The notes beneath the pieces were generated by a model. The model did no database searches. It was given only the letters and a program-made list of their open reading frames with translations, and was not told the origin of the DNA. The position numbers and the translations under genes are program-made. From a virus, in the IMG/VR virus record IMGVR_UViG_3300006870_000058, positions 1 to 28,954 of that record: a stretch of DNA of 28,954 nucleotides, one strand, 5' to 3'. Shown piece by piece: positions 6,900-24,086 of this stretch (positions are counted from its first letter, which is position 1; each line of letters begins with the position of its first letter).

Positions 6900-7940
6900 G
6901 TGATAAGTTATATTGGTGGTAAGAATAGAATGGCAGAATGGATTAGTAGTTACATTCCAGAGTGTGAAACGTATGTAGAGGTATTTGGTGGTGCATTTTG
7001 GGTGTATGTAAACTCTGACATCCATGAAAGAGCACAGAATGTTATTTACAACGATTTCAATCCTTACATGGTAAATCTATTTCGTTGTGCGTCAGAACCA
7101 AAGAAGTTTATGAAGTTTATTGAGAGTAAGAATCCACCAGTTCAAACTAAAGGGCAACCAGAACTAAGTAGAGAATGTAATGATTTCTTTTATCAGTGTA
7201 AGAAAGAAATGTTTGGTAGGAATGCGTTGAAGAAATTTTTATCAGACAAGGTTCGTCGCCATCAAATAGCTACACACATTCATTATTTAGAGGGTGGCAC
7301 TTCTACTCTTGAAAAGATTGAGAAAGATATTCTTTCTGAGATAAACTATTGTATAAAACAGTTGCGTGAAAGAACTAGTAATAGTCAATCAGTAGCAAGA
7401 GACAAGATTAGGGAAAAGATACAAGCAGGTAAGAAAGACCAATCCATAGCTATGAAGTATGCTTACATACTTGCATCATCATTTAGTGGTGTAGATCCTG
7501 TTGACGCAGAGTTTCAAGATTACAAGGGTATGTATGGTTCTAAATTTACTGCATTTACAAACAGATTAACTAGTGATAAGTTTATTCCCAAGTTGAAGAA
7601 GATACATACTTGTGAGAATATGTCATTTGAGGAGGTAATAGCAAAGTATGATTCACCCACAACATATTTCTACGTTGACCCTCCTTATTGGAATACTGAG
7701 TCTTACTATAGTTTACATGAGTTTGGAAGAGAACAGCATTACCAGTTGAGAGATTCTCTTCATGGCATATCTGGTAAGTTTTCATTATCATATTATGATT
7801 TTGATGAGTTGAGTGAGATGTATCCAAAGAATGATTTTGTTTGGGAAAGAAAAGAGTTTGCGAAACCTGCAGGAGCAAAAGAAGGTGTTGATCAAGGTGT
7901 AGGTGAAGAACTTCTTATTATGAATTATAATAATGTATGA
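6900..7940 (+). CDS. D12-class DNA adenine-N6 methyltransferase (Dam-like)
   Basis: 346 aa. Motif X/start region SYIGGKNRMAEWI (3-15), SAM-binding motif I YVEVFGGAFWVYVNS (25-39), the acidic YNDFNPYMVN (50-59), and catalytic motif IV DPPYW (D260-W264). This order (alpha class) and the 'GGK' start are diagnostic for D12 methylases such as Dam and T4 Dam. The central 130 residues hold a long charged helical insert (about 100-190), larger than in Dam, presumably the target-recognition region; the target sequence cannot be read. GTG start at 6900 with CGAGG upstream. Likely role: marking phage DNA or evading restriction. No cognate restriction enzyme is adjacent. Confidence 0.92.
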   Translation: MISYIGGKNRMAEWISSYIPECETYVEVFGGAFWVYVNSDIHERAQNVIYNDFNPYMVNLFRCASEPKKFMKFIESKNPPVQTKGQPELSRECNDFFYQCKKEMFGRNALKKFLSDKVRRHQIATHIHYLEGGTSTLEKIEKDILSEINYCIKQLRERTSNSQSVARDKIREKIQAGKKDQSIAMKYAYILASSFSGVDPVDAEFQDYKGMYGSKFTAFTNRLTSDKFIPKLKKIHTCENMSFEEVIAKYDSPTTYFYVDPPYWNTESYYSLHEFGREQHYQLRDSLHGISGKFSLSYYDFDELSEMYPKNDFVWERKEFAKPAGAKEGVDQGVGEELLIMNYNNV

Positions 7941-7947
7941 TATTTAT
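7940..7947 (+). promoter_or_regulatory. Intergenic octamer ATATTTAT (copy 2)
   Basis: Overlaps the methylase stop codon and lies 41 bases before the metallothionein-like ATG. A weak TTAAGA/TCTTAA dyad follows directly. Shares the octamer with seven other intergenic leaders. Confidence 0.4.
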
Positions 7948-7988
7948 ATTAAGAATAACTCTTAACCCTTATTTTATGGAGAAGATCA

Positions 7989-8144
7989 ATGTCTTGTTCA
8001 TGTAGTGTCAAAAAACAGTGTAAATGTTCCCATAAGAGTCAATGTTGTGATGATTGTTCTTGTGGCAAAAAGATAACTAAAGAACAAGTTGTCATAGATT
8101 GCGAAAAAGAAGAAAACGAGAACATAGTAAGAGGTTTAGATTAA
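7989..8144 (+). CDS. Metallothionein-like cysteine-rich protein, 51 aa
   Basis: Begins MSCSCSVKKQCKCSHKSQCC. Eight cysteines fall in the first 25 residues (C3, C5, C11, C13, C19, C20, C23, C25) and one more at C38, arranged as CxC, CxC, CC, CxC. This spacing is the hallmark of metallothioneins, which bind Zn, Cu or Cd in thiolate clusters; H15 could add a ligand. The C-terminal half is acidic and free of pattern. The ATG has a good ribosome site (GGAGA at 7978-7982). It lies alone between an ATATTTAT motif and a 26-bp palindrome. Similarity to a named metallothionein family is not established; a small zinc-cluster regulator is the alternative. Confidence 0.75.
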   Translation: MSCSCSVKKQCKCSHKSQCCDDCSCGKKITKEQVVIDCEKEENENIVRGLD

Positions 8145-8148
8145 TCTT

Positions 8149-8174
8149 TGTTGGCGGTGTTAACACCGCCAACA
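8149..8174. repeat. 26-bp perfect GC-rich palindrome
   Basis: The half-site TGTTGGCGGTGTT (8149-8161) is followed exactly by its reverse complement (8162-8174), centred on a GTTAAC. As RNA it forms an 11-bp GC-rich hairpin with a TTAA loop. No T-run follows on either strand, so it is a poor intrinsic terminator. It could be an operator for a dimeric protein, an mRNA-protecting hairpin or a processing site. Its GC content stands out strongly against the surrounding sequence. Confidence 0.85.
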
Positions 8175-8192
8175 TCAAAAAATGGAGTTTTT

Positions 8193-8480
8193 ATGTTAGA
8201 GTATACGATTATAACAATTCTTTTATTTGTTTGTTGTTTTTTATATTTCTTGTTAAATAGATCTATAAACACTATTCAAAGAAATGAAAATATTATTAAC
8301 AACATATATGAAGAATTAAATACGATGGCTGAAGCCATAGAGATAGTTTTAGGTCACGGTATTTATAGTAACGATCCTGTTATTACAAATTTTATAGATA
8401 GGTTAAAGGTTATTGGAGAATATATAGGGCAAATAAACAGTGATTATGATTTTAATGATTTAGGTGAAAGAAATGAATAA
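8193..8480 (+). CDS. Membrane-anchored small protein, 95 aa
   Basis: ATG at 8193 is preferred over the TTG at 8148, which would lie in front of and read through the palindrome; GGAG at 8184-8187 fits 8193. One N-terminal transmembrane segment (about 4-22: YTIITILLFVCCFLYFLLN) is followed by a polar helical region (INTIQRNENIINNIYEELNT) and an acidic C-terminus. The topology suggests an inner-membrane anchor with a cytoplasmic coiled-coil domain. Not recognised; a spanin-like or holin-related function is possible but unsupported. Overlaps the next gene by 8 bases (8473-8480). Confidence 0.75.
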   Translation: MLEYTIITILLFVCCFLYFLLNRSINTIQRNENIINNIYEELNTMAEAIEIVLGHGIYSNDPVITNFIDRLKVIGEYIGQINSDYDFNDLGERNE

Positions 8481-18402: not shown

Positions 18403-18564
18403 ATGACATATTCAACAGATACATTAATATGTGGCGTTTGTAAAGGTAAAAAGATTATAGTAAATGAATCTACTAAGAAGAATGAACTTTGTCCGAAATG
18501 TCAAGGACAAGGTAATCTAAATGAATCTTTAGGTCAGAAAAGTAAGACACTACTAAGAGGATAA
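18403..18564 (+). CDS. DnaJ-type zinc-finger small protein, 53 aa
   Basis: Short frame with two CxxCxG(K/Q)(K/G) repeats: CGVCKGKK (C10, C13) and CPKCQGQG (C30, C33). These match the paired zinc-binding repeats of the DnaJ cysteine-rich domain, without any J-domain. GTAGGTGATTTT upstream gives a ribosome site. The stop codon ends exactly one base before the first nucleotide of the tmRNA, so the two are almost certainly on one transcript. Possible roles are a zinc-dependent chaperone adaptor or a small structural zinc protein. Confidence 0.7.
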   Translation: MTYSTDTLICGVCKGKKIIVNESTKKNELCPKCQGQGNLNESLGQKSKTLLRG

Positions 18565-23917: not shown

Positions 23918-24086
23918 AGTTATAACTCGTATAATAGAACCTTATGAGTTAAAAGAAGAAGATGGTAAGGTTTATTTATATGCATATGATACTACTGGTA
24001 GAACAAGAAGTATAAAGTCCTTTTTATTAGAAAACATATTATCTGCAAATAAACAAAGAAGAGAATTTACCCCTAGGATATTTTAA
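23829..24086 (+). CDS. WYL-domain-like protein, start uncertain
   Basis: Open from a TTG at 23754, but ATG at 23829 (85 aa) is a more sensible start; neither has a good ribosome site. The recognisable part is VLVRIIYRKLETNRVITRII, EPYELKEEDGKVYLYAYDTT and GRTRSIKSFLLENILSANKQ, matching the WYL pattern (strand, 'R.i.Py.l...dg..YlyAy', 'iRsF.l..I......f.pr'). WYL domains sense nucleic acids or nucleotides. No helix-turn-helix is attached. It overlaps the upstream frame by at least 89 bases, unusual here, so initiation might be non-canonical. Its stop overlaps the terminase ATG (TAATG). Confidence 0.55.
   Translation: MVKRTNKTIIESIQQKVLVRIIYRKLETNRVITRIIEPYELKEEDGKVYLYAYDTTGRTRSIKSFLLENILSANKQRREFTPRIF

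Follow-up and report, generated by a model that had tools for sequence, protein, structure and literature searches.

A T4-like phage carries, inserted as cargo between the genes for an adenine methylase and a small membrane protein, an open reading frame (ORF) for a 51-residue, cysteine-rich protein, and the explanation that we favour, with some reserve, is that this cargo gene encodes a small metal-thiolate cluster protein. The gene lies in a 28,954-base IMG/VR contig, analysed over its whole length and referred to below as the window, with the following features.

6900–7940, plus strand: DNA adenine methylase gene, upstream neighbour and left border of the slot.
7941–7948, plus strand: TATTTATA element, a promoter-like candidate upstream of the 51-residue ORF, also found in the related contig L122.
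7978–7981, plus strand: Shine-Dalgarno-like GGAG, ~7 nt before the ATG of the ORF.
7989–8144, plus strand: cysteine-rich, metallothionein-like orphan ORF (51 residues, 9 Cys).
8149–8174, no strand assigned: perfect 26-nt palindrome that folds into a strong hairpin, lacks a U-tract and occurs once in the window.
8193–8480, plus strand: gene for a 95-residue protein with an N-terminal membrane segment, downstream neighbour and right border of the slot.
2427, 7941, 15460, 23973, 27861 and also 22166: positions of TATTTATA in the window.

The cysteine-rich frame and its phage

Judged from its genes, the contig belongs to a T4-like environmental phage. Its genes for the large terminase and the portal match phrog_2 and phrog_213, and it also has SbcC-like, primase and DNA polymerase genes. 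Among named phages, those closest by terminase are the Flavobacterium phages 'immuto' and Microcystis phage Mel-JY01, at ~45% identity. The polymerase gene (75–2426) matches phrog_405, and its product looks like bacterial PolIII-alpha (DnaE), not the family B enzyme of T4.

Translation of 7989–8144 gives MSCSCSVKKQCKCSHKSQCCDDCSCGKKITKEQVVIDCEKEENENIVRGLD, with cysteines at residues 3, 5, 11, 13, 19, 20, 23, 25 and 38, bearing out the initial annotation, which had described nine cysteines in 51 residues, eight of them in the first 25, in CxC/CC/CxC arrangements. Residues 3–25 hold eight of the nine in the spacing CxC-x5-CxC-x5-CC-x2-CxC, so that eight cysteines fall within 23 residues, and the overall cysteine share is 17.6%. 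The spacers in this region are rich in Lys and Ser and free of aromatic residues, the C-terminal tail is acidic, and the protein has one His. This cysteine density is far beyond chance: at the frequency of 0.78% observed in the other genes of the window, the binomial probability is 2.5e-10 for at least nine Cys in 51 residues and 1.4e-11 for at least eight in 25, and no ORF of at least 25 residues with eight Cys in 25 residues arose in 150 simulated windows (first-order Markov), compared to exactly one, 7989–8144, in the real window. Synonymous codon usage did not distinguish the ORF from decoy ORFs and is uninformative at such length. Nonetheless, 7989–8144 is a credible gene, because it has an ATG with GGAG ~7 nt upstream, shares its strand with the neighbouring genes and faces no competing gene; Shine-Dalgarno sites similar to this GGAG precede the phage's other genes. 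Neither a signal peptide nor a hydrophobic segment can be seen in the sequence, and the protein is therefore probably cytoplasmic and reduced.

The variable slot and its signals

Between the methylase and the small membrane-protein gene lies a variable slot, at 7941–8192 in the window. Six IMG/VR contigs share the adjoining methylase at 53–88% identity, and profile queries added further ones. Nothing occupies the site of the cysteine-rich gene in either of the two relatives whose methylases are 88% identical. In L122, one of these, the methylase stop is followed by TATTTATA-GGAGATAAT-ATG, which leads directly into the small membrane-protein gene, and compared to it the window has ~230 extra bases between the common borders, holding the cysteine-rich ORF and the palindrome. 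The slot is empty in L122, L123 and L126, and is occupied by an FkbM methyltransferase gene with a small ORF in L124, by a 67-residue ORF in L125 and by a 39-residue ORF in L127, with the borders keeping their order among the relatives. Since the slot is empty in the closest relatives and holds unrelated cargo in others, the cysteine-rich gene is an accessory cargo ('moron') gene, one of several fillings of a variable slot. As far as found, it is a one-off accessory gene of this T4-like phage.

The TATTTATA element, which read on the opposite strand gives the T4 late promoter TATAAATA, may be a promoter element of this phage. It occurs five times in intergenic DNA, as called in our analysis, against 0.6 expected, a number reached in none of 500 simulations, with the qualification that the motif was picked post hoc from the same data and that the copy at 23973 possibly lies within an ORF. 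The copies sit 25–113 bases ahead of a gene. The initial annotation had credited the cysteine-rich gene with a leader motif of its own, of which a GGAG Shine-Dalgarno and an upstream TATTTATA indeed exist, but the string ATAACTCTTAACCCTT occurs only once in the window, and TATTTATA is not specific to the gene, as L122 carries it without the gene.

The palindrome that had been noticed downstream was confirmed as a perfect 26-nt inverted repeat, TGTTGGCGGTGTTAACACCGCCAACA, GC-rich in a genome of 31% GC and with a folding energy of −19.8 kcal/mol (z −6.4). No second hairpin like it was found in the window or in the related loci examined. With no run of T 3′ of the hairpin, and hence no U-tract, the palindrome does not qualify as a canonical intrinsic terminator; formation of a transcript end and RNA stability are candidate roles.

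Relation to known metallothioneins

Metallothioneins typically carry CxC and CC clusters separated by Lys/Ser spacers, and in composition (small size, high Cys content, CxC/CC motifs) the 51-residue protein has the features expected of a metallothionein in the broad sense. Like the window protein, members of the prokaryotic family PF02069 (SmtA/BmtA) have ~50–75 residues, nine to ten Cys and CxC motifs. However, the window protein lacks their CxCxxCxC start as well as the GLYYC and CGHxxC motifs, which supply the His ligands of the PF02069 core, and the PF02069 profile gave no match to it up to E 10, let alone one above the curated cut-off. A six-frame search of the record with the same profile gave no match either, the control in Synechococcus elongatus being positive. 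Thus, by profile and motifs, the protein falls outside PF02069, and the search against metallothionein families that the initial annotation had proposed as a check matched it to no profile. When its cysteines were registered without gaps against those of four known metallothioneins, agreement was no better than for shuffled versions (P 0.09 to 0.70), and the metallothionein reading is therefore weaker than appearance suggests. The Neurospora-type fungal copper metallothionein has a CxC-x5-CxC start in common with the window protein, and five Cys of the two line up ungapped, but 8.6% of shuffled versions match it equally, so the resemblance does not indicate kinship. Small zinc-ribbon proteins of phages, such as that encoded at 18403–18564 in the window, are also small and cysteine-rich, but have paired CxxC knuckles, unlike the CxC and CC of the window protein. 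The description 'metallothionein-like' holds for cysteine-cluster composition, CxC/CC motifs and small size, but not for profile match or for cysteine spacing, which is within the range of shuffles.

Profile and sequence searches of Pfam, PHROGs, NCBIfam and PDB sequences revealed no homologue, the sole NCBIfam match (E 0.029, below cut-off) involving only the tail, and tblastn against phages and plasmids gave no match. Scans of DNA from IMG/VR and GTDB contigs for the peptide pattern and cysteine spacing yielded, among the matches listed, low-complexity or out-of-frame artefacts and one plausible real cysteine-rich ORF, from Paenibacillus apiarius (L265). The latter packs 20 Cys into 50 residues and matches nothing in Pfam; kinship with the window protein could not be demonstrated. 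Inspection of small cysteine-rich ORFs in ~90 loci bearing the methylase or neighbouring genes, and in Microcystis phage Mel-JY01, also gave no counterpart. Because such pattern scans are insensitive to short, divergent proteins, 'orphan' here means none found by these means among the matches listed.

Metallothioneins were regarded in the initial annotation as not commonly described in phages, and this novelty is weakened by one case. When the same tblastn approach was applied to the phage collection with SmtA as query, Microcystis phage MaAM05 was matched at 44% identity (E 1e-4), and the protein scores 46.1 bits against the PF02069 cut-off of 33. Its gene (L269:1498–1719, corresponding to MW495066.1 111775–111996) is annotated 'hypothetical protein'. 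By this match, at least one phage record includes a metallothionein gene; the window protein aligns with the MaAM05 product at a BLAST E of 0.23. A narrow two-sequence query found no PF02069-like proteins in IMG/VR, and our literature search on phage or viral metallothioneins turned up nothing on point: in the Ab31 paper, metallothionein is listed in a table belonging to the section on bacterial genome analysis, and the text describes no such phage gene.

Proposed metal binding and competing readings

Given the cysteine composition and spacing, together with what is generally known of metallothioneins, metal-thiolate binding is our best, moderately confident, reading of the 51-residue protein. 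The product would most likely be small, cytoplasmic and hardly folded by itself. Its N-terminal 25 residues, with eight Cys, would enclose a small number of soft metal ions, possibly Cu(I), Zn(II) or Cd(II), in a cluster of thiolates, and behind them comes an acidic tail that may form a helix. In the infected cell, the protein could reduce the level of free metal or mop up oxidants or electrophiles. A single-sequence AlphaFold model (pLDDT 75) predicts a helix at 31–47 and short strands in the cysteine part; it had no match in the PDB and only chance-level matches among viral structures.

This model also bears on an unlikely but not negligible alternative, a small structural zinc protein, built like a finger around one or two fixed Zn sites, that would act by binding a protein or nucleic acid of the host or the phage and not as a metal buffer. 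Phages encode numerous small zinc-binding regulators, and the predicted short strands and the helix containing the ninth Cys would suit such a protein, but eight Cys in 23 residues with CxC/CC motifs are denser than a single-site finger needs, zinc-finger profiles went unmatched and no structural match emerged. Less probable again is a thiol-rich or disulfide-forming peptide, acting for example in redox buffering or by binding to the membrane or a host target: the high thiol content and the location in a variable cargo slot, typical of host-interaction genes, accord with it, whereas the apparent lack of a signal peptide or hydrophobic segment points to a reduced, cytoplasmic protein. Least probable, by a little, is a non-expressed chance frame in an inserted spacer, which would account for the failure of every search to find homologues and for the uninformative codon usage, but hardly for a cysteine enrichment of P about 1e-11 that none of the 150 simulations yielded, nor for a good ribosome-binding site on the strand common to the neighbours.

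Within the metal-thiolate reading, the metal bound and the benefit to the phage are, like the binding itself, inferred. That the protein supplies zinc to phage enzymes, as the initial annotation had suggested, is speculation, and relatives with 88% identical neighbouring genes manage without the gene at this site. A bolder version, which we regard as rather doubtful, is that the gene represents a new metallothionein family, carried by a phage and with no sequence kinship to known ones, and acts as cargo that controls free copper or zinc in the host during infection. On present comparisons, the gene is a single orphan of putative function. The MaAM05 case indicates that a metallothionein gene can sit unannotated in a phage record. 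If metal binding by the 51-residue protein is true, it would be an independently evolved metallothionein-like protein, and metal buffering would join the auxiliary functions carried by phages.
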